A stretch of 18,271 nt of DNA from Streptosporangiaceae bacterium (lineage in GTDB: Bacteria; Actinomycetota; Actinomycetes; Streptosporangiales; Streptosporangiaceae). The stretch lies in NCBI GenBank assembly GCA_030045215.1, contig JASIBJ010000225.1, positions 1 to 18,271 on the forward strand, in the 5' to 3' direction. Below, piece by piece: positions 1-17,927 of the stretch (its first letter is position 1; each line of letters starts with the position of its first letter). The notes beneath the pieces are model-generated. The model did not search any database and was not told where the DNA came from. It saw only the letters and a list, made by a program, of their open reading frames with translations. A program made the position numbers and the translations under genes.

Positions 1-1135
1 CGGCGGGCATGCTGACACCGATCGCGGAGGCGGCGTACGCCGAGCGTGACATCTTCGCCCTCGGCCTGGCGTCGCTGCGCCGGTACCCGGCGTTCGCGGC
101 CGAACTTGAGGTGGCAGCGGGCCTGCCCACCGGATTCCGGCAGACTGGCACGCTGCAGGTTGCCTACGATTCCGACGACCTAGCGGTGCTTGACCAACTG
201 CGGGCACTGCAGGACTCGTTCGGTGTTCAGACCTGCCAGCTGACCGCGCGCCAGTGCCGAGAGGCCGAGCCCATGCTGGACCCGTCGATCCGCGGCGGGC
301 TGCTGGCAGCCGATGACGGCTCGGTCGACCCGCGGCTGCTTGCGGCTGCGCTGCTGCGCGCCGCGACCGCGGCGGGAGCGCGGCACCTGCCGCTGCCGGT
401 CGCCGAGATCCTCACCGAGCGCGCCGCACGTACCAGCCCGCACGCCGCGGCGGCGGGCATGGCCACGACCGCGGCGGACCCGACTCTGGGCCGCGCCAGC
501 GGCGTCAGGTTCGCCGACGCCTCTGAGCTGGCCGCGCCTGCCATCGTCTTGGCCGCCGGGTGGAAGTCGGCCGGGTTCCCCGGCCTGCCAGCCGGATGCG
601 CCCCCCCGGTCCGGCCGGTGAAAGGCCAGATCCTGCGGCTGCGTTCCACGGCGACGACGATGGCGGCCGGCCTGCCGCCCGGACTGCTGCGGCGAACGGT
701 GCGCGGGATCGTCCGGGGGTCAAGCGTCTACCTCGTGCCGCGCGAGAGCGGCGAACTGGTCGTGGGGGCCACTCAGGAGGAACTCGGCGCGGACACGACG
801 GTCACCGCTGGCGGGGTCTGGGAGCTGCTACGAGATGCACGCGCGCTGGTACCCGGCGTCACGGAGCTGGCGCTGGCCGAGGTCGTCGCCGGCTTGCGAC
901 CGGGAACGCCAGACAACGCCCCGCTGCTCGGCCCGGCCGCCCTGCCGGGACTCGTTCTGGCCACCGGCCACTTCCGGTCGGGCGTGCTACTCGCTCCGGT
1001 CACAGCCGATACGGTCAGCCGCTATCTGCTGACCGGACAGTCCGATCCGCTCTGGGCAGCCTTCGGCCCCGACCGGTTCCCCGCCGTCGCCGGACGACCC
1101 CGGCCGACGGCGCCCGTCACCCAGGTGGCCGCGAC

Positions 1136-1139
<4 letters not shown>
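1..1139 (+). CDS. thiO: Glycine oxidase ThiO, 5'-truncated by window start
   Basis: FAD-dependent amino-acid oxidase of the DadA/ThiO family. In thiamine synthesis it oxidises glycine to iminoglycine for the thiazole synthase. The reading frame is open to the window edge, and the residues before the first ATG (position 9) are Ala-Gly, giving the family's internal AGML motif, so that ATG is not the real start. The N-terminal GxGxxG FAD loop lies off the window. Visible are the substrate-domain stretch with VKGQILRLR, the YLVPR and VVGATQEE strands, and the C-terminal FAD-contact segment AGLRPGTPDNAPLLG followed by LATGHFRSGVLLAP. An alanine-rich stretch (about residues 140-165 counted from that ATG) looks like a loop insertion. 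The stop overlaps the thiS start (ATGA, 1136-1139), so the two are translationally coupled. Other FAD amine oxidases are possible, but the thiS-thiG neighbours settle it. Confidence 0.93.
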
Positions 1140-2097
<958 letters not shown>

Positions 2098-2158
2098 GGC
2101 GAGGGCGGCGCCGGCCACCTGCCATGGCTTTATCGGGCCAGGACTCGTTTTCGCACCC

Positions 2159-2164
2159 TAGACT
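2159..2164 (+). promoter_or_regulatory. Putative -10 element for a leaderless kinase transcript
   Basis: TAGACT fits the actinobacterial TANNNT -10 pattern and lies exactly seven bases before the kinase ATG at 2172. This would place the transcription start on the start codon itself. No purine-rich ribosome binding site precedes that ATG, which agrees with a leaderless mRNA. No convincing -35 is seen. Confidence 0.4.
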
Positions 2165-2171
2165 GCTCCCG

Positions 2172-4160
2172 ATGGATACGACGCTGTCAGCACCGATCGG
2201 GCAGTTGCTCGACGGCCGCTACCTTGTCGAGTCGCAGCTCGCCCGCGGTGGCATGGCCGCCGTCTACCTGGGCCGGGACGTGCGGCTCGACCGGACCGTC
2301 GCGCTGAAGATCGCCCATCCGGAGCTGGCCCGCGACCGCGAGTTCACCGATCGGTTCATCGGTGAGGCCCGCGCGGTCGCCCGGCTATCCAGCCCGAACG
2401 TCGTTGCCATCTTCGACCAGGGCTCCACTGGCGACATCAACTACATCGCGATGGAGTACGTGCCAGGGCCGACCCTGCGCGAGTTGCTCAACGCCCGCGG
2501 GCGGCTGAGCCCGCGGGAGTCCCTGGACATCATCGAGGGCGTGCTCAGCGGGCTTGCCGCAGCCCACGACGCCGGGATCATCCACCGGGATGTCAAGCCC
2601 GAGAACGTGCTGCTCGGCACCGGCGCCACGGTGAAGGTCGTCGACTTCGGCCTGGCCAGGGCGGCGGCTGGCATGCGGAACACCAGGACCGGCCTGCTCA
2701 TCGGCACTGCCGCCTATCTCGCCCCCGAGCAGGTCTCGTCGAACGCCTCGGATGCCAGGACGGACGTGTACGCGGCGGGCGTGATGCTGTTCGAGATGCT
2801 CACCGGGTCCCAGCCGCATACCGGCGACACACCGCTCGCCGTTGCCTACAAGCACGTCAATGCGGCTGTCCCGGCGCCGTCGAGCCTGGTTCCCGACCTG
2901 CCGCCGGCGCTCGACGCGCTGGTCGCGCTCAGCACCAATCGCGACCCGGCGCTGCGGCCGCCGGGCGCGGCGCACTTTCTGCACGCCATCGGCCAGGTCC
3001 GGCGGGGCATGCCCATTCCGCCGGTCTATCCAGGCGCGCCCGCCGCGGCACAGGGCACCGGTCACCAGGCTTCAAGCGGCGGGGGCGCAGGCACTTTCAG
3101 CATGGCCGCGACCGGCCGGATCAGCCCTGGCGCGGTGGCCGCGGGGACGGCCGGTCCGGCGATCTCCTCGCATCACACCATGATCGTTCCGGCCGGGGCG
3201 ATGGAGGCCGGCTACGCCGGTGACGGCGCCGGCTATGCCATGCAGCCACGACGCTCCCGCGGGTACCGAGAGCCGTTCCTGCAGCGCTGGCTCTTCAGCC
3301 GCCGGATATTGATCGTCCTGGCCGTGATCGTGATCGGCGCGGCGACCTGGTGGCTGGTCGCGGGCCAGTACTTCAGCCTGCCCAGGGTGACTGGCATGAC
3401 CGTGAGCGCGGCCAAGGCCGATCTGGCCAGTACGGGCCTGACCGCAAGGCTCGGGAGTTCCAGGCATAGCGACACGGTGGCGGCGGGCGATGTCCTCGCT
3501 ACCGTTCCTGCCTCGGGATCGAATGTCAAGCATGGCCAGGTGATCACCATCATCATCTCGCTCGGCCCGGAGCTGGCCACGGTCCCGAATGTGACGGGCC
3601 AGACGCTTGCCAGCGCTCAGCAGGGCCTTGAGCAGGCCGGGCTCACGCCCGCCCCGCCGACCTACGAGACGTCCTCCGCAGTAGCGCCGGGGATCGTCAT
3701 TGCGACCGACCCGGTCGCCTACACGAACTGGCCGAAGGACAAGCCCGTGGGCCTCATCGTCAGTTCGGGGCCGCCGCTCCCGGATTTCGTGGGAGTGCCG
3801 CTCACCCAGGCTGAAGGCGAGGCCGGATCGGTCGGGGTGACGCTTCAGCCGGAGAGGGCGGCGACGAGCAACCTGCCGGCCGGCACCGTGATCCGCCAGT
3901 CCCCGGCGCCGAACACCGCGATGAGGCCGGGCGAGGTCGTCGTCGTCTGGTTCTCCCCCGGCCCGCCCGAGGTCGCGGTGCCCGACGTGGACGGCCTGTC
4001 ACAGCAGCAGGCAGTGCAGGAACTCCACGCCGCGGGCTTCCAGGTCTCGGTCAATAACACTTTCGGCGGCATCGCGGGCAGCGGGGTGACGAGCTACTCG
4101 CCAACCGGCGAGGCCCCGAAGGGCTCGACGATCACCATCAACATCGGGTTCAACCTCTAG
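2172..4160 (+). CDS. PknB-type Ser/Thr protein kinase with four PASTA domains
   Basis: Membrane Hanks-type kinase of 662 residues. Kinase domain about 15-275: glycine-rich loop LARGGMAAVY (first and last loop glycines are alanine, as in several actinobacterial members), ATP-binding lysine K46 in VALK, catalytic HRDVKPEN at 138-145, DFG at 158-160 and APE at 184-186, so all catalytic residues are present. A Gly/Ala/Ser juxtamembrane linker follows. One hydrophobic helix (about 379-397) comes after a basic cluster. Four extracellular PASTA repeats run from about 402 to the end (opening SLPRVTG, TVPNVTG, LPDFVGV, VPDVDGL). PASTA domains of PknB bind peptidoglycan or lipid II fragments, so a cell-wall signalling role is likely. 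Start 2172 gives the family-like MDTTL...GQLLDGRY. An in-frame ATG at 2124 is possible but less so. Substrates are unknown. Confidence 0.93.
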   Translation: MDTTLSAPIGQLLDGRYLVESQLARGGMAAVYLGRDVRLDRTVALKIAHPELARDREFTDRFIGEARAVARLSSPNVVAIFDQGSTGDINYIAMEYVPGPTLRELLNARGRLSPRESLDIIEGVLSGLAAAHDAGIIHRDVKPENVLLGTGATVKVVDFGLARAAAGMRNTRTGLLIGTAAYLAPEQVSSNASDARTDVYAAGVMLFEMLTGSQPHTGDTPLAVAYKHVNAAVPAPSSLVPDLPPALDALVALSTNRDPALRPPGAAHFLHAIGQVRRGMPIPPVYPGAPAAAQGTGHQASSGGGAGTFSMAATGRISPGAVAAGTAGPAISSHHTMIVPAGAMEAGYAGDGAGYAMQPRRSRGYREPFLQRWLFSRRILIVLAVIVIGAATWWLVAGQYFSLPRVTGMTVSAAKADLASTGLTARLGSSRHSDTVAAGDVLATVPASGSNVKHGQVITIIISLGPELATVPNVTGQTLASAQQGLEQAGLTPAPPTYETSSAVAPGIVIATDPVAYTNWPKDKPVGLIVSSGPPLPDFVGVPLTQAEGEAGSVGVTLQPERAATSNLPAGTVIRQSPAPNTAMRPGEVVVVWFSPGPPEVAVPDVDGLSQQQAVQELHAAGFQVSVNNTFGGIAGSGVTSYSPTGEAPKGSTITINIGFNL

Positions 4161-4217
4161 GCGACCAGGTCTCGCGGGCTCGAGCGCCCAGCTGGTGCCC
4201 GGAGGGTCACGGCCGGG

Positions 4218-4943
4218 CTACAGCGGCGGCCCCTCGCCCTCCAGTTCCTGGTAGGAGTACCGCTGCTCCCGCCAGGGGTCGGCGACATTGTGGTAGCCGC
4301 GCTCCTCCCAGAAGCCGCGCCTGTCGACGGTCATGTACTCGACCGCGCGCACCCACTTGACGCTCTTCCAGGCGTAGAGGCTCGGGACGACCAGGCGCAG
4401 CGGGTACCCGTGCTCGGGAGTCAGCGGTTCGCGGTCGCAGTGGGTTGCCAGAATCGTGTCCTCCGCGGCAAAGTCACCGATCCGCACGTTCGCGCTGTAG
4501 CCGAAGTCAGCCCAGATCATCACGTGCGTCACCGCGGGGGCAGGCGGGAACCCGAGCAGCAGGTCGGCAGCCAGCACCCCCGACCAGCAGATGCCGGGCA
4601 CTGTGAACTTCGTCACGCAGTGAAAGTCGGCCGTTACTTCGGCCATCGGAAGCTGAGCGATGTCATCCCAGCTCAGCCTGGCCTCATTGCCCGACTCGGT
4701 CGCGCCGAAAATTCTCAGGTCCCAGGTCTGCGGGTTGAAGGCCGGCACGGGTCCGTAGTGCAGGACCGGCAGAGTGCGGGGAATGTACTGACCAGGGGGC
4801 AGGTCTCCCGCCTCCCCGGCGGGCTGCTGCGGATGGCCCGTCCCGGACTGCGCCTGGTCTGCGAGCGGGCCAGCGTCCCAAGCCGCGCGCGAGTCCTGCG
4901 CTCGCCCGCTGCTCTCGCGCGCGCCTGTATCAGGCTGCGTCAT
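4218..4943 (-). CDS. Sulfite oxidase-like molybdopterin oxidoreductase
   Basis: Cytoplasmic-type member of the oxidoreductase molybdopterin-binding domain family (sulfite oxidase/YedY fold). The conserved core starts near HYGPVPAFNPQTWDLRIFG. It contains DFHCVTKF, whose cysteine (residue 109 in this start) is the expected molybdenum ligand, then HVMIWADFGYSANV, EHGYPLRLVVPSLYAWK and WVRAVEYM. The ending RRGFWEERGYHN...DPWREQRYSYQE is typical of the short actinobacterial form with no cytochrome or dimerisation domain. No signal peptide or Tat motif is seen. The first 50 or so residues are Gln/Gly/Ala-rich and unlikely to be catalytic. The start is uncertain: 4943 gives MTQPDTG, while ATGs at 4970 and 5072 are also in frame and none has a clear ribosome binding site. 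Physiological substrate unknown. It ends 57 bases from the kinase stop, convergent. Confidence 0.85.
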   Translation of the reverse strand: MTQPDTGARESSGRAQDSRAAWDAGPLADQAQSGTGHPQQPAGEAGDLPPGQYIPRTLPVLHYGPVPAFNPQTWDLRIFGATESGNEARLSWDDIAQLPMAEVTADFHCVTKFTVPGICWSGVLAADLLLGFPPAPAVTHVMIWADFGYSANVRIGDFAAEDTILATHCDREPLTPEHGYPLRLVVPSLYAWKSVKWVRAVEYMTVDRRGFWEERGYHNVADPWREQRYSYQELEGEGPPL

Positions 4944-5009
4944 CTCAGGCTGACCTGCCCCTTCCCGCATAGCGCAGCACCCAGCCGCGAAATCGACCCT
5001 TGTTCTCGC

Positions 5010-5031
5010 AGGTGGAGCTATCTTGCCACCT
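5010..5031. repeat. Inverted repeat between divergent genes
   Basis: AGGTGG (5010-5015) and CCACCT (5026-5031) form a perfect 6-bp inverted repeat with a 10-base centre. It lies upstream of the molybdoenzyme gene and about 70 bases before the aromatic leader peptide. It could be an operator or the hairpin of a 5' leader. Nothing more can be read from sequence alone. Confidence 0.3.
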
Positions 5032-5062
5032 CCCGAAAACTGACTGAGCCTGGCCCACCGGC

Positions 5063-5092
5063 CAGACCGCATCGCCCCGAGTGGGCTAAGCT
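5063..5092 (+). promoter_or_regulatory. Promoter of the aromatic leader/DAHP synthase unit
   Basis: The -10 TAAGCT (5087-5092) matches TANNNT. A weak -35 CAGACC (5063-5068, sharing the GAC core) lies 18 bases upstream. Seven bases separate the -10 from the leader-peptide ATG at 5100, so the transcript is expected to start on or next to the initiation codon. There is no Shine-Dalgarno sequence before that ATG, consistent with a leaderless message. Confidence 0.5.
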
Positions 5093-5099
5093 ACGGCTC

Positions 5100-5174
5100 A
5101 TGCGTAGCGAGTATTGGTTTGGTTTTGGCTACCGGCCCGGCCCTGGGACGGTCGCCCGCCAGACTCTGCGCTGA
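5100..5174 (+). CDS. Aromatic amino-acid attenuator leader peptide
   Basis: A 24-codon ORF whose residues 5-11 read YWFGFGY: five aromatic residues in seven codons (Tyr 5112, Trp 5115, Phe 5118, Phe 5124, Tyr 5130), covering all three end products of the shikimate pathway. It stops at TGA 5172-5174, 18 bases before a strong terminator hairpin and 76 bases before the DAHP synthase start. This is the layout of a classical ribosome-mediated transcription attenuator: scarcity of any aromatic aminoacyl-tRNA should stall the ribosome early in the peptide. A segment just after the control codons (CCGGCCCGG, 5132-5140) is perfectly complementary over nine bases to 5198-5206, within the 5' arm and loop of the terminator, and could form the antiterminator. 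The peptide itself probably has no other function. The stall and antiterminator model is inference. Confidence 0.85.
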   Translation: MRSEYWFGFGYRPGPGTVARQTLR

Positions 5175-5192
5175 CGCGAGCGACGCTAACCG

Positions 5193-5223
5193 AAGCCCCG
5201 GGCCGGAACGGCCCGGGGCTTTT
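5193..5223 (+). terminator. Attenuator terminator hairpin before DAHP synthase
   Basis: A perfect 12-bp stem (5193-5204 with 5210-5221) closed by the five-base loop GGAAC, ending in a short T run (TTTTC). It lies after the leader peptide stop and before the DAHP synthase gene on the same strand, so it is placed to stop transcription early rather than end a gene. Its 5' arm is also the target of the candidate antiterminator segment 5132-5140. Confidence 0.85.
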
Positions 5224-5250
5224 CGTCATGATGGAGTCGAGGAGGACGTC

Positions 5251-6294
5251 GTGGTGGTGGTTATGGCCCCGGAGGCCACGCAAGCCGATATTGCTGCAGT
5301 TGTCGAACTGGTCCAGGCGGCGGGCGGCGAGGCTTTCGTCAGCCGCGGCGTATCCCGGACGATCATCGGCCTCGTCGGCGATGTCGAGCAGTTCGGCGCC
5401 CTGAACCTGCGAAGCTACAGCGGTGTCAGCGACGTCGTGCGCATATCCGTGCCGTACAAGCTGGTCAGCAGGGAGCATCACCCGAACCGATCGGTGATCC
5501 ACGTCGGCGGCGTGCCGATCGGGCCGGATACGGTCACGGTCATCGCCGGACCGTGCACCGTGGAGACTCCCGAGCAGACCCTCACGTCGGCACGGATGGC
5601 CCAGGCGGCCGGGGCGTCGCTGCTGCGCGGCGGCGCGTTCAAGCCGCGCACGTCGCCGTACGCCTTCCAGGGCCTCGGCGAGGCCGGGCTGCGGATCCTG
5701 GCGGACGTCCGGGCCGAGACCGGTCTGCCGGTCGTGACCGAGGTCATTGATCCGGCCACCGTCGACCTCGTGTCCTCGTACGCGGACATGCTGCAGGTGG
5801 GGACCCGCAGCATGCAGAATTTCACGTTGCTCCAGGCGGTGGGGTCGGCCAGCAAGCCGGTGCTGCTCAAGCGGGGCATGAACGCCACCATTGAGGAGTG
5901 GCTGATGGCCGCCGAGTACATTGCGCAGCGCGGCAACCTCGACATCGTGCTGTGCGAGCGGGGCATCCGGACGTTCGAGACCGCAACCAGGAACACGCTG
6001 GACATCAGCGCGGTACCCGTCGCACAGCGGCTGTCCCACCTGCCGGTGATCATCGACCCGTCACATTCGGGCGGCCGACGCGATCTCGTGCTCCCGCTGA
6101 CGCGAGCCGCGATCGCCGTCGGCGCGGACGGGATCATCGTCGACGTGCATCCGCAACCGGCGGCGGCGATGTGCGACGGCGACCAGGCGCTCACCGGCGA
6201 CGACATCAGGGAACTGGCGACCGCGGTCCGCACGCTGCCGCAGCTGCTCGGCCGCGAGCTAGCGCCGGCGCCGGTGCCGGCCGGGGCCCGCTGA
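5251..6294 (+). CDS. aroF: DAHP synthase, type I-beta with N-terminal regulatory domain
   Basis: 3-Deoxy-7-phosphoheptulonate synthase, the first step of the shikimate pathway (phosphoenolpyruvate plus erythrose 4-phosphate). The protein is 347 residues. The N-terminal 70 or so residues form the ferredoxin-like feedback domain (VVVVMAPEATQADI, GVSRTIIGLVGD), which in Thermotoga-type enzymes binds Tyr or Phe. The TIM barrel follows with AGPCTVET (metal-ligand Cys about 102), RGGAFKPRTSPYAFQGLG, QVGTRSMQNF, KPVLLKRGM, CERGIRTFE, IDPSHSGGRRD and GIIVDVHP. Start: GGAGGA at 5241-5246 precedes a run of three GTG codons (5251, 5254, 5257). I choose the first, though the second is better spaced (7 bases). 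Expression is likely controlled by the upstream attenuator, and activity by allostery. The symbol could equally be aroG or aroH; many actinomycetes use a type II enzyme instead. Confidence 0.94.
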   Translation: MVVVMAPEATQADIAAVVELVQAAGGEAFVSRGVSRTIIGLVGDVEQFGALNLRSYSGVSDVVRISVPYKLVSREHHPNRSVIHVGGVPIGPDTVTVIAGPCTVETPEQTLTSARMAQAAGASLLRGGAFKPRTSPYAFQGLGEAGLRILADVRAETGLPVVTEVIDPATVDLVSSYADMLQVGTRSMQNFTLLQAVGSASKPVLLKRGMNATIEEWLMAAEYIAQRGNLDIVLCERGIRTFETATRNTLDISAVPVAQRLSHLPVIIDPSHSGGRRDLVLPLTRAAIAVGADGIIVDVHPQPAAAMCDGDQALTGDDIRELATAVRTLPQLLGRELAPAPVPAGAR

Positions 6295-6378
6295 GGCCCG
6301 GAGCGCGCCTGGCCAACGCTAGGACGCCTCCCGCCACGACGCGATCGCCGACACCTGGAGCGGGCCCGACGCCAGCGG

Positions 6379-7251
6379 TCAGAGCGCCTCGACCGCCGGG
6401 ATGACCTGGCTGCCTATCACCTCAAGCGGGGCCAGCGTCCAGACGTTGGCGACCGCCCCGATCGCAGTCCCGAAGCCCAGCTCGGCCAGCTGGCCGAGCC
6501 GATCGACGACCTCGCTCGCGCGCTCGCCGCGCTCCCCCATATCGAAGATGAAGTAGCAGGTCTTCTCGATCTCGTCGTAGTCGCGGCCCTCGGCCTCGCA
6601 GTGGGCGCGGAGCACGTCGAGCTTCCGGCCGAGGTCGGGGCCGGAGAACAGGTTGCAGGCCTGGGCGTATCTGGCCACCAGTCGCAACGTCTTCTGCTCA
6701 CCTCCGCCGCCGATCATGATCGGCGGGTGCGGCCTGGATAGGGCTGCTGGCCTATTGAGTGGACGCTCCAGCTGGTAGTGCCGGCCAGTAAACGGCGACT
6801 CGTCACCGCTCCACATCTGCAGGCAGATCTGCAGAGTCTCCTCGAGCCGCTCGAACCGCTCGGCCACGGGCGGAAACGGAATGCCAAGTCCCTGGCTCTC
6901 CTCCTTGTTCCAGGCCGCGCCGATGCCCAGCCAGGCCCGGCCGCCCGATAGCACATCCAGCGTCGTCACAATCTTGGCGAGGACGCCGGGATGCCGGTAG
7001 ACGACGCCGGTGACCAGAGTCAGCAGCCGAGCATTGGATGTGCACGCTGCCAGGTATCCGAGTGTGGTGTAAGCCTCGAGCATGTCGTGCTCGGGCGGGC
7101 CGATAGGGCCGATCTGGAAGAAGTGATCCATCACCGCGATGCTGGAGAATCCGGCATCGTCGGCGGTGCGGGCAACCTCGGCGAGTCGTCGCCCGAGGTG
7201 TTCAGGACCGCCGGCACCCTGAAAGTCGGGGATCTGCAGGCCTATGCGCAT
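6379..7251 (-). CDS. LLM-class F420-dependent oxidoreductase
   Basis: Luciferase-like TIM-barrel flavin/F420 enzyme of 290 residues, resembling the TIGR03560 group. The start MRIGLQIPDFQG is the canonical first strand of the family, so I use ATG 7251 rather than the longer frame from 7335. Visible motifs: VARTADDAGFSSIAVMDHFFQ, EAYTTLGYLAACTSNARLLTLVTGVVYRHPG, TLDVLSGGRAWLGIGAAW, FERLEETLQICLQMW, RPHPPIMIGGGGEQKTLRLVARYAQACNLF. The last glycine-rich block is where F420 or FMN phosphate binds in relatives. The natural substrate cannot be inferred. A weak GAGG lies just upstream of the ATG. It converges with DAHP synthase across 84 bases and diverges from the secreted protein gene, with 175 bases between starts. 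Confidence 0.9.
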   Translation of the reverse strand: MRIGLQIPDFQGAGGPEHLGRRLAEVARTADDAGFSSIAVMDHFFQIGPIGPPEHDMLEAYTTLGYLAACTSNARLLTLVTGVVYRHPGVLAKIVTTLDVLSGGRAWLGIGAAWNKEESQGLGIPFPPVAERFERLEETLQICLQMWSGDESPFTGRHYQLERPLNRPAALSRPHPPIMIGGGGEQKTLRLVARYAQACNLFSGPDLGRKLDVLRAHCEAEGRDYDEIEKTCYFIFDMGERGERASEVVDRLGQLAELGFGTAIGAVANVWTLAPLEVIGSQVIPAVEAL

Positions 7252-7426
7252 CGCCTCAGCGTGCCACAAGCGCGTGGCCAGCCAACCGCGGCTTGGCGGC
7301 GAACGGGAAGAAACATCAACAGAACCGGGCCGCACTACTGCCCCTCACCCGGTATTTTGTGCAAGCCTTGACCTTAACGTTGCGCAACTGCGGGCTACCT
7401 GTTCTGGCCCCGCGCGGAGGCATGAA

Positions 7427-8560
7427 ATGCCGAGGTACCGCTCGCTCGGTGCGGCTGCCGTGGCCATTCTGCCTGCCATGATCTTGAGTCCGGCGGCGGG
7501 GCGGGCGGAAGTGCAGCGCGCCACCGTGCAGCACGCGGCAATCGTGAGCCCGCAATGGCGCATGGCGGTGAACCTGCACTACGGCCAGATTCCCAACGCG
7601 TCCGGATACTCCGAGGTCCTGACGGTCGGCCACGTGGTCTGGGCGTTCGGCGGAACAAATCCCGGCGGACAGAGTTCGCCGGTGGCAATGTTCCTGGCTC
7701 GCGGAACCTGGCATGATTCGGCACTGCCTGCCGGGCTGACCAACTTCATCAGCGGCGCCAGCGCGCCGAAGCCGAATGACATCTGGGCGATCAGCGAATA
7801 CGGCGAGTACGTCCTGCACTGGAACGGCTCCCGCTGGTCCCTGGTCAAAAGCTGGAGCCAGTCCGGCCAGCTCACCGGGGTGGTCGCGATCAGCAGCCGG
7901 AACGTCTGGGTGTTTGGCACATCCGCTGGCGGCGATCACACCATTGGCACCTGGCACTTCAACGGCCGGAGGTGGAGGCCCGTCAGCTCCGGCGGTAAGG
8001 ACATCTACCGGGCAAGCGCGCTGTCGGCCTACGACATCTGGGGGATCGCGGCCGGGCCGAAGGTCGACTCGATCGAGCGCTTCGGCCACCGAGGCTGGCA
8101 CCACGTGCGGACCGGCCGCGTGCTGGTCGGTGCCCGCTGGCACGACATTCTGGCCGTGTCGGAGAACGACGTCTGGATTCTCGGGACTGCGGCGAGCCGC
8201 CAGGGCACCGGCAGGCTGGTCCTGGCCCACTGGAATGGCAGGTACTGGACCAGGTTCGACACGTCCTTGCAAGCATGGGCGGGCCAGCTGGCCGCGGCAG
8301 AATCTGGATCGATCATCGCGACGGCCATGTCCTCAGGGCTGGCGGGCGACGGGCTCATCATCGAGATGACCGGCAGCGGCCACCTGACCTGGTCGACGAT
8401 CTCGTCGAGCCTCGGCAGCGGGGTCACCGACGTCGCCTACGCTTCGCAGAGCCAGATCCTCTGGGCCAGCGGCGGAGTCCTGACGAGGCTCGGGGGCAAT
8501 GCTGCCCTCTGGACGCTCGCGCTACCTCACTTCAGCCGGCGGCCGGGTCCCGACGGCTGA
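7427..8560 (+). CDS. Secreted beta-propeller-like protein, function unknown
   Basis: 377-residue exported protein. Residues 1-27 form a signal peptide: basic start MPRYR, hydrophobic core, likely cleavage after AGRA. The mature part carries about six loosely repeated units of roughly 43-45 residues. Each pairs a strand such as HVVWAFG (69), NDIWAIS (117), NVWVFGT (159), YDIWGIA (202) or NDVWILGT (247) with an outer motif of the W-x-NG-x-x-W kind (LHWNGSRWSLV, WHFNGRRWRPV, AHWNGRYWTRF). This periodicity is typical of a beta-propeller. No catalytic motif, lipobox or membrane anchor is seen. The start is chosen from GGAGG at 7416-7420, six bases before ATG 7427; an ATG at 7422 is in another frame. 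Similar 'DVWAVG'-type secreted proteins are common in actinomycetes and mostly uncharacterised. Confidence 0.82.
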   Translation: MPRYRSLGAAAVAILPAMILSPAAGRAEVQRATVQHAAIVSPQWRMAVNLHYGQIPNASGYSEVLTVGHVVWAFGGTNPGGQSSPVAMFLARGTWHDSALPAGLTNFISGASAPKPNDIWAISEYGEYVLHWNGSRWSLVKSWSQSGQLTGVVAISSRNVWVFGTSAGGDHTIGTWHFNGRRWRPVSSGGKDIYRASALSAYDIWGIAAGPKVDSIERFGHRGWHHVRTGRVLVGARWHDILAVSENDVWILGTAASRQGTGRLVLAHWNGRYWTRFDTSLQAWAGQLAAAESGSIIATAMSSGLAGDGLIIEMTGSGHLTWSTISSSLGSGVTDVAYASQSQILWASGGVLTRLGGNAALWTLALPHFSRRPGPDG

Positions 8561-8572
8561 CCGCGGCCGCGA

Positions 8573-9814
8573 TTAGCCGGCCCCGGGCATGTGCTCCTGC
8601 GCGGCCGCGGCCAGTTCCTCGGCCAGGTCATCTGCCTCGAGACGGGCCTCGATCCGGCGCAGGTCTTCGATTCGGGCCCGCGTCTCCACCTGCCGGGGCG
8701 TGAGCAGCGAGCAACAGTCCTGATCGGGCAGTTCCGAGATGGTGAGGGTCTCGATGCGGCGTGCCTCGCGGATGATCTCCGTCTTGTCCCAGCCGATCAG
8801 CGGCCGCAGGATCGGCAGGTGCACCGCGTCGTCGAGCGCCGTGATGTTGGCCAGCGTCTGGCTGCTCACCTGGCCCAGCGAATCGCCGGTGACCAGCGCA
8901 GTGGCCCGAAGCCTGCGGGCCATCGCCGCGCCGGTCTTGAGCATGAGCCTGCGCTGGGCCACGATCTGCAGCCGTCCGGCGCCTGAGGAGGCGAGCCGGC
9001 GCTGCGCGTTCCCGAACGCGACGACAAACAACCGCGAGTCGCCCTGGTAACGGTCGAGCTGACGGACCAGGCCGTACGCCTTGTACACCGACTCGGGGCC
9101 GGTCAGCGGCATTCCGGAGAAGTGCAGGTAGCTGCAGCGCAGGCCGCGGCGCATCATCCGGTAGGAGGCGACCGGCGAATCGATGCCGCCTGACATCAGC
9201 ACCAGCGCCCGACCGCTCATGCCGACGGGCAGGCCCCCCTGGCCGGCCCAGCCTTGAGTGAATACGAACACCTCGTGCTGATCCACCTCGACGAATACTG
9301 TCGTTTCCGGCGATGTCAGGTTGACCGGCAGGCCATACTCCTGCTGGATCCTCGTGCCGATCATCACCGCGAGCTCCGCCGATGTGACCGGGAACCGCTT
9401 GTCACGGCGCCTGGCCCTGACGGCGAACGGTCCCGTGCGGCCCGCGACAAGCTCGACGGCCGCCTCAACCGCTGCCTGCGGATCCTTCGCGACCCGGATC
9501 GCCCGGCACACCCGCGCGACGCCCATGACGTAAGTGAGGCGCTCGGCGATCAGGTCAGCCGCGGTCTCCGCGCCAAATCCGCCGGCCTCTCCCCCGGCCA
9601 CCCTGACGACAACGACGCCCTCGCGCTGCCAGACGCGGATGGCAATCCCGAGGTTGCGCACGGAGCGCCTGATGTTCTCGTGCAGGAGGCGCTCGAACTG
9701 CTGCCGGTTCCGTCCCTTGAGGACGATCTCGCCCAGCTTCAGCAGGACGCACGGCTCATGCAGCGCAGGCGCTGCATGCGGTTCGGCGTGGCTGGCAACG
9801 GGCAGCGCGGACAT
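8573..9814 (-). CDS. thiI: tRNA 4-thiouridine sulfurtransferase ThiI (no rhodanese domain)
   Basis: Adenylates and thiolates U8 of tRNA; in some bacteria it also supports thiamine thiazole synthesis. 413 residues from this start. The N-terminal ferredoxin-like/THUMP region opens with EPCVLLKLGEIVLKGRNRQQFE and includes RLTYVMGVARVCRA and VRARRRDKRFPVTSAEL. The PP-loop ATPase domain has LVLMSGGIDSPVASY (SGGIDS about 208-213), LVTGDSLGQVSSQTLANI and RPLIGWDKTEII. It ends soon after DQDCCSLLTPR (Cys 367-368). The C-terminal rhodanese domain of the E. coli protein is absent, so sulfur must be delivered otherwise. The start is uncertain: ATG 9814 (MSALPV) and ATG 9856 are both in frame and neither has a good ribosome binding site. 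It is separated from the thi operon by 6.5 kb and converges tightly (12 bases) with the propeller gene. Confidence 0.92.
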   Translation of the reverse strand: MSALPVASHAEPHAAPALHEPCVLLKLGEIVLKGRNRQQFERLLHENIRRSVRNLGIAIRVWQREGVVVVRVAGGEAGGFGAETAADLIAERLTYVMGVARVCRAIRVAKDPQAAVEAAVELVAGRTGPFAVRARRRDKRFPVTSAELAVMIGTRIQQEYGLPVNLTSPETTVFVEVDQHEVFVFTQGWAGQGGLPVGMSGRALVLMSGGIDSPVASYRMMRRGLRCSYLHFSGMPLTGPESVYKAYGLVRQLDRYQGDSRLFVVAFGNAQRRLASSGAGRLQIVAQRRLMLKTGAAMARRLRATALVTGDSLGQVSSQTLANITALDDAVHLPILRPLIGWDKTEIIREARRIETLTISELPDQDCCSLLTPRQVETRARIEDLRRIEARLEADDLAEELAAAAQEHMPGAG

Positions 9815-9899
9815 CACTTCAGTCTGCCATCTCTCGGACGCGGGGCTTGCACGCATCGCCAGCCGGCCGGGGACGTCGGCCGATCAGGTGGCCGCAGGC

Positions 9900-9905
9900 G
9901 ATAAT
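9900..9905 (+). promoter_or_regulatory. Possible -10 hexamer in the thiI/zinc-ribbon gap
   Basis: GATAAT differs from TATAAT at one base and stands out in this GC-rich gap. If used on the plus strand, the transcript would start near 9912 and carry a leader of about 218 bases, including the foldable region 9961-10073. No clear -35 is present, so this is tentative. Confidence 0.3.
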
Positions 9906-9957
9906 TCCCGCCATGCTGGGAACTGGGCCTGCCGTTGCCGGCGGCCTCGCAGGCTCG

Positions 9958-9969
9958 GGTGACGTCACC
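9958..9969. repeat. Perfect 12-bp palindrome GGTGACGTCACC
   Basis: A perfect dyad in the intergenic region between the divergent thiI and zinc-ribbon genes. It could be a dimeric-regulator operator. Its right half also forms part of a long-range stem (see the adjacent leader element), so DNA-level and RNA-level readings compete. Confidence 0.4.
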
Positions 9970-10073
9970 GAAGGAACGTGAACCGGGCCCAACCCGGCTG
10001 TAAAGCCGCGAACAGGCAGTCTGTGGTGATTATCAGCGACTCGGTGGCGTCCCAGAGTATCTGCTCGGATACT
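9961..10073 (+). promoter_or_regulatory. Candidate structured 5' leader upstream of zinc-ribbon gene
   Basis: Bases 9961-9971 pair with 10041-10051 in an 11-bp helix with a single G-U wobble, enclosing 69 bases. Inside are two mutually exclusive hairpins, 9983-9997 (CCGGG/CCCGG) and 9995-10008 (CGGCT, GTAA tetraloop of the GNRA type, AGCCG), and a small one at 10012-10024 (ACAG/CTGT). Just after the closing helix comes AGTATC-TGCTCG-GATACT (10056-10073), a further hairpin. The gene starts at 10130. This resembles an aptamer with a following switch, but I could not match it to a known riboswitch class, and chance pairing in GC-rich DNA cannot be excluded. Confidence 0.3.
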
Positions 10074-10129
10074 TAAGGTGATGCCATACGGCCAGAGTGT
10101 GACCGGTCGGCAGAAGGACATGATTCCAC

Positions 10130-11932
10130 ATGGCACTCTGCACAAGGTGCGGGCAGGACGCGGAACCCGGAGCGGAATTCTGCCAAGGCTGCGCCGGAAG
10201 CTCCGCCGCCGTAGCTGACCAGCCAGTGACGGCGCCGGCGATGGCCGCCGCCGCCGATTACCTGCGCCCGTTTGCCGCCCAGGGCACCAGCCCCGCGCTC
10301 TTACCCGAGACCCACGGGCCCGACTACTGGACCGATCCGGGTGTCGATCGGATTCCGGCTTACCCGAGGTCTGAGCGTGCAGTCCCGTCGCAGCCTGGTG
10401 AGCCGCCGGAGGAGATCGCGCCGCCCGGCGATGAGCTGCTCGCTGGCGGTAGGTGGTCGTATTTCGCGCAAGACGGCCCGCCCTACGACGACTACGACTA
10501 TGACGGCCCCGATGTCGTGCCGCCGCGCGGCACGTATCTGCCCGGAGCGGGTCAGGCCCCCGCCGGTGCTGGCGAGCGGTACCAGAGGGCCGGCCCCCAG
10601 AGCCAGCTGCAGCCCTACGGCCCCGCCGACAGCGCGGAGCCAGCCGACCAGCAGCGCTACCCAATTCCGGATGCGCCCTACGAGGCGGGCCAGGACTTCG
10701 ATGCGCCGGCAGGCGCGCCGTACACGGTGGGCCCGCAGCGCTACCCGCCCGCGGCCGAGCAGTATCCCGCCGACGACAATGCGCACCCCGCATACCCAGG
10801 CGAGCTTCCCTCGCCCGCCGGCGCACGTGGCGAGGCCGGCTACCACCCGGTCGGCCAGCCCTACCAGGCGAGCGCCGGGTACCCGGCCCCGAGTGCGGAT
10901 TGGGGCGCAAGTTCGCCAGAGGACCTCACGGGCCTGGATCCGATCCGGTACCCGGATCCATTGCTGTATCCGTCGACCGCTGCGCCGAGCGGGCCGAGCG
11001 ACCCGGCAGCTGCGGCCTCGGAGCTGACCGACTCGGGGAAGCCCGCCGGTCGCGGATGGGGAGCTGGTGCCCGGCGCATGTTCAGGCGGAACGGCCCGGC
11101 CGATGCCCAGGCCGATGACGGCGGGCAGTTGTCGGGTGCAGGCTTGCCTGGCCAGCCTTACGCGGCCGCGCCGCATGGTCCCGACGGCGGATCCGCGCTG
11201 GCCACGGCTGCGCCCGAGGCCGGTCAGGCCGGCCCAGACGCGGCAGGCGCGGGCCCGGCATACGACCGCTTCGACCTCATCGATGACCGCATGCTCACCG
11301 CGGATGGCGAGACCGACCTGGAGCCCGATTCCGCGGGCCTGATGACCCGCCGGCCGCCCGGGCAGGGCCGCTGGATTGCCTTCGCCGCGGCGGCGATCGT
11401 GCTGATCCTCGCGGCCGCTGGCGCCACGATCGCGCTCACGCACCGCGCCCCGCCGGCTGGCCACCCGGCCAGCGGCCCGACGTCAACGAGCACGAGCACG
11501 AGCGCCCCCAGGCCGGCGCCGAGGCCCAGACCCCTGGTTACCATCGCGCCCGCCGCTGCCAGCGCGCCGCAGGCGCCGGCGGTGAAAGCCTTTCTGATCC
11601 GTTACTTCACCGCCATCAACGAGCACGACTTCGCGGCGTACCGGTCGCTCTTCAGCGACACGCAGCGCGGGGGGCTGTCGGCCGCCGCGTTCGCCCGTGG
11701 CTACGGCTCCTCGCGGGACTCTCAGGCGACGCTGCGCAGCATCGCCGTAGGCGCCGCCGGGCAGCTTGTTGCCACGGTCAGCTTCGTCAGCCATCAGCAG
11801 CCGGCCGACAGCGCGACCCACTCGGCGTGCACGTCCTGGACCATCTCGTTGTTCTTGATCAAGCAGTCCGGTGCCTATGTGATCCATACGCCGCCGGCCG
11901 GCTACGGCGCAACCGCCGCTGCCTGCCCGTAG
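10130..11932 (+). CDS. Zinc-ribbon, single-pass membrane protein with NTF2-like C-terminal domain
   Basis: 600 residues in four parts. (1) Residues 4-21 form a zinc ribbon: C4-x2-C7-x10-C18-x2-C21. (2) A long low-complexity cytoplasmic region, about 25-400, rich in Pro, Tyr, Ala, Asp and Gly with recurring RYP/YPA-type words, almost certainly disordered. (3) A transmembrane helix, about 415-437, after a basic stretch. (4) A Ser/Thr/Pro linker and an extracellular domain, about 484-598, starting VKAFLIRYFTAINEHDFAAYRSLFS, which resembles NTF2/SnoaL-like folds; two cysteines (SACTSW and the C-terminal ACP) could form a disulfide. AAGGA at 10114-10118 precedes ATG 10130 by 11 bases. No function is known. 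The layout suggests an envelope protein with a cytoplasmic docking tail. The fold assignment of the C-terminal domain is inference. Confidence 0.8.
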   Translation: MALCTRCGQDAEPGAEFCQGCAGSSAAVADQPVTAPAMAAAADYLRPFAAQGTSPALLPETHGPDYWTDPGVDRIPAYPRSERAVPSQPGEPPEEIAPPGDELLAGGRWSYFAQDGPPYDDYDYDGPDVVPPRGTYLPGAGQAPAGAGERYQRAGPQSQLQPYGPADSAEPADQQRYPIPDAPYEAGQDFDAPAGAPYTVGPQRYPPAAEQYPADDNAHPAYPGELPSPAGARGEAGYHPVGQPYQASAGYPAPSADWGASSPEDLTGLDPIRYPDPLLYPSTAAPSGPSDPAAAASELTDSGKPAGRGWGAGARRMFRRNGPADAQADDGGQLSGAGLPGQPYAAAPHGPDGGSALATAAPEAGQAGPDAAGAGPAYDRFDLIDDRMLTADGETDLEPDSAGLMTRRPPGQGRWIAFAAAAIVLILAAAGATIALTHRAPPAGHPASGPTSTSTSTSAPRPAPRPRPLVTIAPAAASAPQAPAVKAFLIRYFTAINEHDFAAYRSLFSDTQRGGLSAAAFARGYGSSRDSQATLRSIAVGAAGQLVATVSFVSHQQPADSATHSACTSWTISLFLIKQSGAYVIHTPPAGYGATAAACP

Positions 11933-11945
11933 CCGGCCCGCCCGG

Positions 11946-12752
11946 TCAGGCTGGCAGCACGGCGCACAGCAGCCGGTTGAAACCGTACTGCCAGAGGATG
12001 CCGATCTCGGTGAAACCCGCGGCCCGCAGCGCCTGCGTCTGCACGCTGAGCAGGCCGGCCGGCGAGCCGTGGTGCTCAGAGTCCACGTCCCGGGCGTCCC
12101 GCTCGGCACTGAGCGCCGCCAGGTCGGGATCGGCGGCCACCGCTGCCCACCAGCCTTCCCAGGTCTCGATCCGGTTGGTCGACAAGTACCGCTGCTCCCG
12201 GCGCGCCGTCATGGCCCGGCCCAGCCTGGTCAGCGTCGGCGCGGTGTCGTCCTCGCGCATGTGGTCGCCGTTCAGCAGCACCCCGCCCGGTGCGAGCAGC
12301 CTGGCTGCCTCCGCGTACGTCGAGACCAGGGCGTCCTGCGTTAGCCAGTGCAGCGCGGTCGTGCTGACCACCGCATCCGCCCGCCGGTCCAGGCCCAGAC
12401 CCGCAGACCAGCCGGTGACGCGCAGGTCGGCGTCGACGAACCGAAGCCCGGCCAGGTCCTTGAAGGCCACCCGCCCCAGCGTCATCGTCAGCGGGTCGGC
12501 GTCGATCGCGACAACCGTCGCCTTCGGCAGTCGCGCCAGCACTCGCACCGCCAGTGAGCCGGGTCCGCAGCCCAGGTCGATGACGAGTGGATCGGGCCGG
12601 CCGACGGCGTCCTCGAGCGCGTCGATCAGCGCGGTGAACCGCTCCTCCCGGTCCGGCAGGTAGCCCTGCTGCTGGTGGTCCCAGCGCTCGATCCACGCGC
12701 GAGCCACATCCTGGCTGAGCGCTTCGCCATTGCCGACTGCCGAGCCTGCCAT
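11946..12752 (-). CDS. Class I SAM-dependent methyltransferase
   Basis: 268-residue Rossmann-fold methyltransferase resembling the trans-aconitate/ubiquinone methyltransferase group. Motif I is VIDLGCGPGSLA (DLGCGPG at 59-65), the acidic end of strand 2 is D84 in VVAIDADPL, and motif IV-like STTALHWL sits at 130-137, followed by EAARLLAPGGVLLNGDH. The N-terminal AWIERWDHQQQGYLPDREER is a substrate-lid segment. Substrate unknown. GGAGG lies seven bases before ATG 12752, so the start is firm. It is transcribed away from the CGNR regulator, and its likely promoter (12810-12838) overlaps that gene's start and two repeats, suggesting control by the neighbour. It converges with the zinc-ribbon gene across 13 bases. 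Confidence 0.88.
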   Translation of the reverse strand: MAGSAVGNGEALSQDVARAWIERWDHQQQGYLPDREERFTALIDALEDAVGRPDPLVIDLGCGPGSLAVRVLARLPKATVVAIDADPLTMTLGRVAFKDLAGLRFVDADLRVTGWSAGLGLDRRADAVVSTTALHWLTQDALVSTYAEAARLLAPGGVLLNGDHMREDDTAPTLTRLGRAMTARREQRYLSTNRIETWEGWWAAVAADPDLAALSAERDARDVDSEHHGSPAGLLSVQTQALRAAGFTEIGILWQYGFNRLLCAVLPA

Positions 12753-12772
12753 GGGATGTCCTCCTTCGCCCT

Positions 12773-12809
12773 GAGGGCGTAACTGGCGTATAGGATTTTC
12801 ACAGTCACG
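12773..12809 (+). repeat. Operator-like repeat, copy A
   Basis: A 37-base unit matching copy B (12821-12857) at 28 of 37 positions: GAGGGC, TAACTGG and ACAGTCACG are identical, and the differences cluster in the centre. The copies start 48 bases apart on the same strand. Each unit is itself an imperfect dyad (GTAACTG here, CAGTCAC at the end, 16 bases between), as expected of a dimeric-regulator site. Copy A covers the predicted transcription start of the methyltransferase. Confidence 0.65.
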
Positions 12810-12838
12810 AAGCTAGACCGGAGGGCATAACTGGTCAA
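12810..12838 (-). promoter_or_regulatory. Predicted promoter of the methyltransferase gene
   Basis: On the minus strand, -35 TTGACC (12838-12833) and -10 TAGCTT (12815-12810) are separated by 17 bases, an excellent sigma70-like arrangement fitting TTGACA and TANNNT. Transcription would begin near 12803, about 50 bases before the methyltransferase ATG and its GGAGG. The -35 lies inside repeat copy B and abuts the CGNR start codon on the opposite strand. Protein bound at the repeats would therefore block this promoter. Confidence 0.6.
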
Positions 12839-12857
12839 GTGAATTTCAACAGTCACG
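12821..12857 (+). repeat. Operator-like repeat, copy B
   Basis: Second copy of the 37-base unit. It contains the -35 of the methyltransferase promoter and the GTG start codon (12839) of the CGNR gene, so its right part also encodes the first residues of that protein. Its dyad arms are ATAACTG and CAGTCAC. Confidence 0.65.
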
Positions 12858-13408
12858 TCGATACGATTGTGGCCGCCGCGGTTCGCCTGGTCAACGCGGT
12901 CACGCCGGGCGAGGCTCGCGGGCGCAGTTTCGAACAGCCCGCCGGGGAAGGCCTTCGCGCCGCCGTGAGTGAGGCACTGCGAACCGGCCGGCGCGAGGCG
13001 CCGGCGATCACCGCCGAGGACGCGGCCAAGCTGGCCCTCGTCGCGGGCTGGCTCCGCTCGGTGTTCGACTCGGCCGACCGGGGTGACGTGGATGCTGCCG
13101 CGCTGACGCTCAACGCGCTGCTCGCCGAGACCGGCGCCCGACCCGAACTCGAGAAGCACGACGGCGAGCCGTGGCACATGCACTTTCACGGCAGTACCGA
13201 TTCCCCGGCCGTAGGCTGGGCGGCGGGTTGTGCCACCGGCCTGGCCATCGTGCTCGGCACCGAGATGTACGACCGCCTCGGGGTGTGCACGGCGCCACGG
13301 TGCGACCGCGTCTACGTCGACGTGTCCAGGAACGGGACACGCCGGTTCTGCTCCACGACCTGCCAGAACCGGGTCAAGTCCGCGGCGTTCCGCGCCCGGC
13401 GCGTCTGA
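12839..13408 (+). CDS. CGNR zinc-finger family putative transcriptional regulator
   Basis: 189 residues. The N-terminal ABATE-like stress-sensing domain starts NSHVDTIVAAAVRLVNAVTPGEARGR and includes the WHMHFH segment (112-117) typical of the family. The C-terminal zinc finger has Cys 150, 155, 171 and 175 in GVCTAPRCDRVYVD and RRFCSTTCQNR, then a basic tail. The eponymous CGNR motif reads CQNR here (Gly to Gln); the zinc ligands are intact. Members are presumed DNA-binding regulators. The GTG start gives the family-like MNFNSHVD and has GGAGGG at 12820-12825, a rather long 13 bases upstream. The gene diverges from a methyltransferase whose promoter and repeats overlap this start, so it plausibly controls both itself and that gene (inference). 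Confidence 0.88.
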   Translation: MNFNSHVDTIVAAAVRLVNAVTPGEARGRSFEQPAGEGLRAAVSEALRTGRREAPAITAEDAAKLALVAGWLRSVFDSADRGDVDAAALTLNALLAETGARPELEKHDGEPWHMHFHGSTDSPAVGWAAGCATGLAIVLGTEMYDRLGVCTAPRCDRVYVDVSRNGTRRFCSTTCQNRVKSAAFRARRV

Positions 13409-13457
13409 CGCATCACCAGGGGACAGACACGGGCCGCCTCTGCTTGCGCGGCGAGCG

Positions 13458-14507: not shown

Positions 14508-14549
14508 CGTGTTTTTCCTCTCACGTCTCCTGCGGCCACACTAGTGGCT

Positions 14550-16112: not shown

Positions 16113-16221
16113 GTCGCTGCTCCGCATTCCGGCCAGACGCACCGGACGAGTCGGCCCGACACGGCCAGTAGCCCCCTGATCGCCCCGGCCTGGCGGGCGT
16201 CCGCTCGGACCGTTGCCCCCG

Positions 16222-16452
16222 CTAGTCATCGAGCACGTCGGCGAATTCGCCGTTACGCACGCCCGCCATGAACGCAGCCCACTCCGAGCGCGAGAAAACC
16301 AGAACCGGCCCGGCCGGGTTCTTGCTGTCACGGACGCCGACCCGGCTACCGGGCAGCCGCGCCACCAGCACGCAGTCGGCGTTGGCGTAACTAAGCGAGC
16401 TTTTCACCCAGCGCAAGCGGGCCTGGCCGGGCGCGCACATCGTCTCGTGCAT
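16222..16452 (-). CDS. DUF397 domain protein
   Basis: 76-residue small actinobacterial protein. The whole chain is the DUF397 domain: RLRWVKSSLSYANADCVLVARLPG, then VRDSKNPAGPVLVFSRSEWAAFMAGVRNGEF. GGGAGG nine bases before ATG 16452 fixes the start; a longer frame to 16524 is unlikely. DUF397 genes normally sit beside an Xre-type helix-turn-helix regulator and act with it, often in development or antibiotic control. Here no such partner is adjacent on either side, so it is an orphan copy, or its partner is elsewhere. Confidence 0.88.
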   Translation of the reverse strand: MHETMCAPGQARLRWVKSSLSYANADCVLVARLPGSRVGVRDSKNPAGPVLVFSRSEWAAFMAGVRNGEFADVLDD

Positions 16453-17561: not shown

Positions 17562-17563
17562 AC

Positions 17564-17575
17564 CTCAGATCTGAG
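17564..17575. repeat. Perfect 12-bp palindrome CTCAGATCTGAG before plsC-like gene
   Basis: A perfect dyad ending three bases from the acyltransferase start codon (minus strand). Its position over the expected ribosome binding site suggests an operator, or an RNA hairpin masking translation; it could also be chance. Confidence 0.45.
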
Positions 17576-17895: not shown

Positions 17896-17927
17896 CTTCC
17901 AGTGCGCTGAGAACGTTGCGCTGGAAG
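17896..17927. repeat. Stem-loop in intergenic region
   Basis: CTTCCAG (17896-17902) and CTGGAAG (17921-17927) pair perfectly, and four more pairs (two of them G-U when read as RNA) extend the stem to 11 with a 10-base loop. No T tract follows on either strand, so it is not a typical terminator. Confidence 0.5.

Follow-up and report, generated by a model that had tools for sequence, protein, structure and literature searches.

In the trp and pheA attenuators of Escherichia coli, competing hairpins are steered by a stalled ribosome, each attenuator serves one amino acid, and the leader brings its own ribosome binding site. A DAHP synthase gene under leader control is likewise of a known kind.

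The available parts of two studies describe aroR of Corynebacterium glutamicum as a leader-peptide attenuator of aroF, which encodes DAHP synthase (PMC4046766, PMC11802643), and the second of these also names trpL and pheL and reports that Tyr availability does not matter with a Tyr codon present in aroR. For Streptomyces, the accessible text of PMC8079986 describes a leaderless signature consisting of a TAnnnT -10 box together with leaderless leader peptides. The available part of PMC1173090 tabulates putative attenuators ahead of Thermus and Thermoanaerobacter operons that contain I-beta genes, and a comparative study of 2005 states, in its accessible sections, that no conserved RNA regulatory structures lie upstream of Phe/Tyr operons in Actinobacteria (PMC1262725).

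The locus studied here lies in a stretch of 18,271 nucleotides from a Streptosporangiaceae bacterium (assembly GCA_030045215.1, contig JASIBJ010000225.1, positions 1 to 18,271), which as a whole is called the window. Next to a molybdopterin oxidoreductase gene on the opposite strand (ORF 4218-5072), we found the following elements:

5087..5092, forward strand: -10 box TAAGCT (TANNNT) at conserved spacing, with a predicted leaderless transcript start at or next to 5100
5100..5174, forward strand: leader peptide ORF of 24 codons, encoding MRSEYWFGFGYRPGPGTVARQTLR (direct sequence reading)
5112..5132, forward strand: control codons Tyr-Trp-Phe-Gly-Phe-Gly-Tyr (direct reading; residues kept in relatives)
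5127..5156, forward strand: predicted hairpin P1, the putative anti-antiterminator, 11 bp (5127-5129, 5131-5134 and 5136-5139 with 5154-5156, 5149-5152 and 5144-5147; minimum free energy fold of 5100-5225)
5132..5140, forward strand: segment B, CCGGCCCGG, 5' strand of the putative antiterminator, mostly the same bases as the P1 5' arm
5151..5184, forward strand: predicted helix P2 (5151-5155, 5157-5159 and 5160-5162 with 5180-5184, 5176-5178 and 5171-5173; fold of 5130-5225)
5172..5174, forward strand: leader stop codon TGA (direct sequence reading)
5193..5223, forward strand: intrinsic terminator, 12-bp stem 5193-5204/5210-5221, loop GGAAC, TTTT at 5220-5223
5198..5206, forward strand: segment D, CCGGGCCGG, 3' strand of the putative antiterminator, in the 5' arm and loop of the terminator
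5240..5245, forward strand: AGGAGG, Shine-Dalgarno sequence of the DAHP synthase gene (direct sequence reading)
5251..6294, forward strand: type I-beta DAHP synthase with N-terminal ferredoxin-like domain, 347 aa, start GTG

The earlier note on this DNA had claimed a 24-codon leader with the aromatic run YWFGFGY, a perfect 12-bp terminator and the shikimate entry enzyme downstream. Direct reading of 5100-5174 confirmed the leader, the terminator stem pairs 5193-5204 with 5210-5221 and runs into TTTT, and the gene 5251-6294 passes the TIGR01361 cut-off (384.3 versus 267.75 bits) and carries the ferredoxin-like domain PF18152 (68 bits versus 27); by this score and the N-terminal domain it is a type I-beta DAHP synthase. 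A short ORF with clustered codons for pathway end products is thus present, and so is an intrinsic terminator between leader and gene, which is the only perfect 12-bp hairpin with a loop of 3-8 nt in the window (one hairpin in two registers). Elsewhere in the window, thiamine genes stand in a row at 9-2097 (a ThiO-like glycine oxidase, a ThiS domain and ThiG), and an ORF of 834 codons at 13608-16112 matches glycerol kinase over residues 317-833; residues 1-316, which are unexplained, overlap a phosphofructokinase ORF of the opposite strand (13458-14507), and the start is therefore probably later. An Rfam search of 5050-5260 at an E-value threshold yielded 20 sub-threshold matches. Apart from two (sX11 and P15/ncS037-type spans), they are centred on the hairpin of the terminator, and the matches were rejected as hairpin chance.

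We read the element as a ribosome-mediated transcription attenuator before the DAHP synthase gene, with a probability of roughly 0.83. The same reading had been put forward in the earlier note, and conservation in 64/81 loci, swap tests and pair counts now support it. Transcription would start at the leader's own AUG (leaderless). With charged Phe-, Tyr- and Trp-tRNA, the ribosome would run to the leader stop codon, P1 would refold just behind it and hold segment B, the 3' side of P2 would be hidden by the ribosome, and the terminator (D:E) would form and stop RNA polymerase near 5223. When charged aromatic tRNA is short, the ribosome would stall on the control codons and hinder or cover the P1 5' arm, the freed P1 3' arm would pair with the post-stop stretch (P2), B would pair with D, and RNA polymerase would continue into the DAHP synthase gene. 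In short, the leader probably switches DAHP synthase on when Phe, Trp and Tyr run short. The ORF, its codons, the -10 box, the terminator and the alternative pairings are conserved in the sequences compared below; the start site, the stalling, the folding order and the amino acids that count are what we infer.

Relatives were collected by a DAHP synthase search of genome contigs, and the best 80 of 582 confirmed stretches, many from Streptosporangiales, were used. A leader was scored when a short upstream ORF had at least three aromatic residues in eight. By this rule a leader is present upstream in 63 of these 80 relatives and, with the window included, in 64/81 I-beta loci, so the conserved short aromatic ORF that was expected in related I-beta loci is indeed found. 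The 64 leader ORFs are 17-25 codons long and are followed by a hairpin (a doubtful one for L076). No leader was scored in 17/81 loci, which comprise two with less than 100 nt of upstream sequence (L052, L078), four of Streptosporangiales whose genomes carry the leader elsewhere (L032, L053, L069, L079), and eleven outside Streptosporangiales. Structural counts were made on 61/64 leaders, leaving out L076 (terminator not located) and the shorter leaders L002 and L003, and sets of 34 representatives and of 14 lineage representatives were picked by eye. On the protein tree the leader label needs 6 changes versus a shuffled mean of 15.6. Moreover, a cassette scan (-10 box, ORF of 10-45 codons in which some 6 residues include three or more aromatics, hairpin) recovers 64/64 leaders and one other site in 1,091,826 strand-bases; its settings were fixed when the leaders were already known, and its -10 filter was a loosened one (C allowed at the first position).

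A sequence model built from the 61 leaders has a match in 196/200 genomes of L044's order at E <= 0.001; since a bare terminator can reach this value, only a best E <= 1e-15 was counted, at which 193/200 genomes match. In the strong-match loci L083-L125 (genomes partly the same as in the earlier set; weak-match loci L126-L131 not counted), the leader is present in 43/43 and a DAHP synthase motif lies at most 500 nt downstream in 39/43, and the other four also read as DAHP synthase. The aromatic leader looks conserved across an order of soil actinobacteria. Plasmid records gave no match, and the same kind of leader was seen in 0/13 upstream stretches (~700 nt) of type II DAHP synthase genes (gene in 14/16 genomes, G015 left out).

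A TANNNT box with its first T 12-15 nt before the leader start codon is present in 64/64 leaders, versus 7/16081 background positions, and GGAG, GAGG or AGGA at -20..-4 is present in 0/64 leaders versus 58/64 DAHP synthase genes. With the box in every leader and a Shine-Dalgarno-like motif in none, the leader transcript is probably leaderless, with its putative start at the leader AUG. By these motifs, the 64 leaders bear the leaderless-transcript signature as described for Streptomyces.

The nine-base complement between 5132-5140 (CCGGCCCGG) and 5198-5206 (CCGGGCCGG) had also been claimed, and direct reading shows an exact reverse complement. A complement of at least 9 nt arises by chance in 44/2000 dinucleotide shuffles of the leader and in 635/2000 synonymous recodings with the codon usage of DAHP synthase genes, and in this one GC-rich sequence the match is weak and not significant alone. 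Because such a match is common in recodings, conservation in relatives, and not the 9-nt match by itself, carries the attenuator case. The registers of P1 and P2 differ between lineages, therefore we used alignment-free tests of own versus swapped partners. In the 61 leaders, own pairings are more stable than swapped ones for B:D (-20.1 versus -17.7 kcal/mol), the terminator (-29.1 versus -26.0), P1 (-17.1 versus -15.7) and P2 (-14.0 versus -11.2), with 0/2000 permutations as low for each, and the control pair of B with the post-stop stretch gains nothing over swapped partners (1926/2000 as low). Two pairings outside the model, C:D (29/2000) and B:E (22/2000), are also slightly better than swapped, and therefore small swap effects are not to be over-read. 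With the 14 lineage representatives, the permutations as low out of 20000 were 5 for B:D, 0 for the terminator, 327 for P1, 0 for P2 and 11399 for the control; with the 34 representatives, P1 gave 3/2000.

On the alignment of the 61 leaders, 99.6% of terminator cells are paired and four of its pairs show two-sided changes. For B:D, 84.0% of cells are paired, versus at most 54.7% when the segments are slid by 1-3 columns, and 47 cells are changed on both sides versus 22.7 in shuffles. Two of the five B:D pair-count measures do not exceed shuffles: the pairs with two-sided changes (G-C/A-U and G-C/C-G) number 2 versus 2.4, and the pair types 5 versus 7.1. On the tree, a single event explains the G-C to A-U change, and an independent-pair test for covariation has no power with only 2 pairs. 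Consensus folding of a MAFFT alignment recovered the terminator alone. Of the compensatory changes that had been predicted for both helices, those in the terminator are found, and those in B:D exceed shuffles by changed cells but not by number of pairs or pair types. The antiterminator reading draws its support from the conservation in 64/81 loci, the own-versus-swapped tests and the pair counts. As judged from sequence comparison and folding, the putative antiterminator shares the terminator 5' arm, is mutually exclusive with the terminator, and is conserved.

A weak point conceded in the earlier note was that segment B would lie free after complete translation. Our modelling supplies the missing competing pairing: P1 would hold 5132-5140 at this stage, and P2 would compete with P1. 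In the fold, P1 stands at the end of the control codons, and many relatives have hairpins of different sequence at this place. In P2, the P1 3' arm pairs with bases around the leader stop and beyond it, and this helix is nested inside B:D. In the window, this nested form of P2 and B:D appears in folds that start near the control codons and lack the terminator 3' arm, and is absent when the whole leader from 5100 is folded without that arm. Individual leaders are weak to modest against synonymous recodings: for the window, 17% (B:D), 39% (P1) and 68% (P2) of gene-usage recodings do as well, the window's own P2 being no better than its recodings, and in the per-leader test of 34 representatives the mean z for B:D, P1 and P2 is -1.21, -0.67 and -1.34 with gene codon usage and -1.31, -1.44 and -1.26 with leader codons.

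The effect of ribosome position was modelled with an assumed footprint of 15 nt upstream and 12 nt downstream of the first base of the A-site codon. Under this assumption, a ribosome at the leader stop would cover ~5157-5184, with P1 free and the P2 3' side hidden. When the footprint was masked and the RNA of the 61 leaders was folded to just before the terminator 5' arm, B:C (segment B with the P1 3' arm) was 0.56 at the stop versus a control-codon mean of 0.25, and P2 had 0.05 pairs at the stop versus 8.7 averaged over the control codons. A P2 gain of more than 1 pair was seen in 57/61 leaders at the last control codon and in 59/61 at the second last, and a B:C loss of more than 0.2 in 57/61 and 54/61, respectively. 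The B:C shift was 0.378 versus 0.05 +- 0.02 in recodings with leader codons and 0.04 +- 0.03 with gene codons. The P2 shift was 9.3 versus 5.5 and 4.3 in the recodings and 4.8 with the post-stop stretch shuffled; these nulls of 4.3-5.5 pairs lie above zero because a ribosome placed at the stop masks that stretch itself, which builds part of the P2 shift into the model. Until the terminator is made, the model has P1 held with the ribosome at the stop and lost on stalling at the late codons. With D present and the 3' arm of the terminator still missing, the ribosome states of the 61 leaders are not told apart by equilibrium folding: D is sequestered at 0.71 without ribosome, 0.80 at the stop, 0.74 as control-codon mean and 0.49 at the last control codon, and the control-codon mean is lower than the stop value in 43/61 leaders and higher in 8. 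It follows that, within the model, the switch has to be kinetic, with P1 formed first and the terminator winning the race. A ribosome at the last control codon would itself cover segment B.

These results bear on how the leader might act otherwise. We consider it unlikely that the attenuator works without the P1/P2 logic, i.e., that leader translation disrupts the terminator or B:D, or that the outcome is set by Rho, pausing or translational coupling. In favour of this are the equilibrium folds with D present, which do not discriminate the states, and P1, which of the four model helices scores weakest when the 14 representatives are swapped. On the other side, P1 and P2 shift oppositely with ribosome position, beyond the synonymous and shuffled controls, and the position of the leader stop makes the edge of the assumed footprint coincide with the end of P1 (5156/5157). 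Far less credible is a constitutive terminator of the upstream or divergent gene next to a chance ORF. The upstream gene in ORF 4218-5072 is on the other strand and therefore has no need for the terminator 5193-5223, the leader, -10 box and terminator are conserved together, and one chance site was met in ~1.09 Mb of strand-bases, which outweigh the GC-rich sequence and the frequent 9-nt complements in recodings that such a coincidence could draw on. A metabolite-binding riboswitch or a T-box in place of a translated leader, as a structured 5' region before a biosynthetic gene might suggest, is just as improbable: the conservation centres on an ORF with aromatic codons while the sequence varies, and Rfam at the gathering score gave 0 matches in the window and no match at the leaders of 12 relatives, in which the single match was Ms_AS-4 in L004 at 225-306, away from the leader.

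Within the ribosome-mediated reading, sensing of all three amino acids is what we infer from the codons only. The 64 leaders contain Phe, Trp and Tyr in 54 cases, Phe and Tyr in 9, and Phe and Trp in 1, and all three residues are kept in 41/43 loci of the model search (some from the same genomes as the 64). In the first 14 leader codons, Phe is encoded by TTT in 74/129 cases and Tyr by TAT in 64/87, versus 0/364 and 3/288 in the first 1000 bases of DAHP synthase genes; such U-ending codons may serve slow decoding or low structure. With the ribosome at the Tyr, Trp, Phe, Phe and Tyr codons of the window, the modelled B:C is 0.60, 0.51, 0.45, 0.18 and 0.00 (stop 0.68), and stalling at the first Tyr, Trp and Phe codons would weaken P1 only partly. 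That the switch senses one or two amino acids (e.g., Phe or Trp), with the other codons as by-standers, is a serious contender to which we give somewhat less than an even chance. This partial shift, the 9/64 leaders without Trp, and aroR of C. glutamicum with its Phe-Tyr-Phe codons and a response reported, in the available text, for Phe and not for Tyr (PMC11802643) argue for it; the three residues in 54/64 leaders and 41/43 model-search loci argue against it, as do the chorismate mutase leaders described below, which keep Phe and Tyr and have Trp in the cluster in 1/26 and 0/21.

Weaker matches of the leader model were surveyed in 26 genomes. In 6 genomes from outside the order (G008, G013, G209, G210, G211 and G212), matches with E 4.6e-11 to 1.3e-4 lie 104-218 nt upstream of PF01817 (chorismate mutase) and on its strand, and the chorismate mutase genes checked are AroQ-type; these 6 genomes also contain further weak matches, in part with better E, for which no link to chorismate mutase was traced. 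We found a leader before chorismate mutase in 26/30 loci of the order of G013 (Streptomyces; 41 genomes searched, 40 with a match) and in 21/30 loci of the order of G008 (Actinoplanes; 31 genomes searched, 30 with a match), L269-L298 being left out as they come from the same genomes as the 31-genome set. The orders of Streptomyces and of Actinoplanes/Actinophytocola we take to be Streptomycetales and Mycobacteriales (GTDB sense). With a stricter first -10 filter, the leader was scored in 0/30 Streptomycetales chorismate mutase loci, and 26/30 was reached after allowing C at the first -10 position and other small changes. The loci are as follows:

L127, L130, L164, L165, L196-L225 and L239-L268: chorismate mutase loci covered, the leaders present being of leaderless type with hairpin

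The peptides are such as MLTHPTFLFTYGNRPTGCHGRAA or of the FFYGYRSPVPV type. Trp is present in the aromatic cluster in 1/26 (G013's order) and 0/21 (G008's order) and anywhere in the peptide in 3/26 and 1/21, versus 54/64 and 55/64 in the DAHP synthase leaders; Phe/Tyr leaders nearly without Trp would fit the branch served by chorismate mutase. When 12 leaders of G013's order were folded, 12/12 had a hairpin immediately behind the last Tyr codon of the cluster, and the terminator contained CCCCGGGCC in 10.

A further Phe/Tyr leader (such as MTCYFAFIEPAPEGRS) occurs in Streptosporangiales, where it precedes either chorismate mutase or a DAHP synthase-like domain fused to chorismate mutase, and was found in only 6/30 loci (61 genomes searched); in the PF01817 set of 26 genomes, a leader of either kind is present in 14/30 loci. 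One fusion protein, L147:1465-2394 on the reverse strand, has a DAHP synthase-like domain (PF00793, 54-171) and a C-terminal chorismate mutase (PF01817, 226-297), lacks by eye the KPRTS and DPSH motifs of the window's enzyme, and has its own YFxF leader; similar ORFs are present in L140, L148 and L156, and near full-length matches in further genomes of the order. Upstream in L171, a YFxF leader of different layout has a long hairpin, made of part of the leader and the post-stop stretch, and then a separate terminator.

The model matches and the shared layout suggest homology between the cassettes of chorismate mutase and of DAHP synthase, and convergence could also account for them. Tentatively, and with the odds slightly against the whole combination, we propose that an old Phe/Tyr cassette at chorismate mutase moved in Streptosporangiales to the I-beta DAHP synthase gene and gained Trp there, that the codons follow pathway position, and that the fusion gene has a separate leader. 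If so, the codon list would be all three amino acids at the entry step and Phe plus Tyr at the branch, the base Phe/Tyr cassette would span the orders of Streptomyces and Actinoplanes/Actinophytocola, and Streptosporangiales would also use a differently built Phe/Tyr leader before the fusion of chorismate mutase with a degenerate DAHP synthase.

Further, the attenuator would add the shikimate entry step to the attenuated pathways of antibiotic-producing actinomycetes and, with the chorismate mutase leaders, also the main branch point of the shikimate pathway. A leader with all three aromatic codons would lend itself naturally to testing how a single attenuator combines several tRNA signals, and would be a simple target where more precursor is wanted in producers.

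Compared with known systems, the proposed mechanism shares the competing-hairpin logic with a stalled ribosome with E. coli trp and pheA. With aroR/aroF it shares a leader-peptide attenuator of an actinobacterial DAHP synthase gene with aromatic control codons, but the codons of aroR are given in the available texts as Phe-Tyr-Phe, with no Trp reported and a Phe response, whereas those of the window are Tyr-Trp-Phe-Gly-Phe-Gly-Tyr and the enzyme is of type I-beta in another order. To our knowledge, C. glutamicum AroF is not of the I-beta type. The ilvBNC leader of C. glutamicum likewise has an anti-antiterminator, an antiterminator and a terminator after the leader peptide (PMC11857589, available part), but it carries codons for branched-chain amino acids and is likened by layout. 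Streptomyces lividans trpL, ilvL and leuL have a leader ORF at the first base of the transcript, TAnnnT and hairpins; the eight leaders in the accessible text serve other amino acids, none being for Phe/Tyr, DAHP synthase or chorismate mutase (PMC8079986). The proposed uORFC-13-1 of Acholeplasma aroF also precedes a DAHP synthase gene and has a terminator, but it is described, in the part available, with at least one Phe codon in a far lineage and from 24 sequences (PMC8632094). Among the literature matches listed, mainly open papers seen in part, we found none on a leader before the chorismate mutase or I-beta DAHP synthase gene of an actinomycete. Against this background, the three-amino-acid I-beta form with its P1/P2 switch, its order-wide spread and the chorismate mutase leaders look new.
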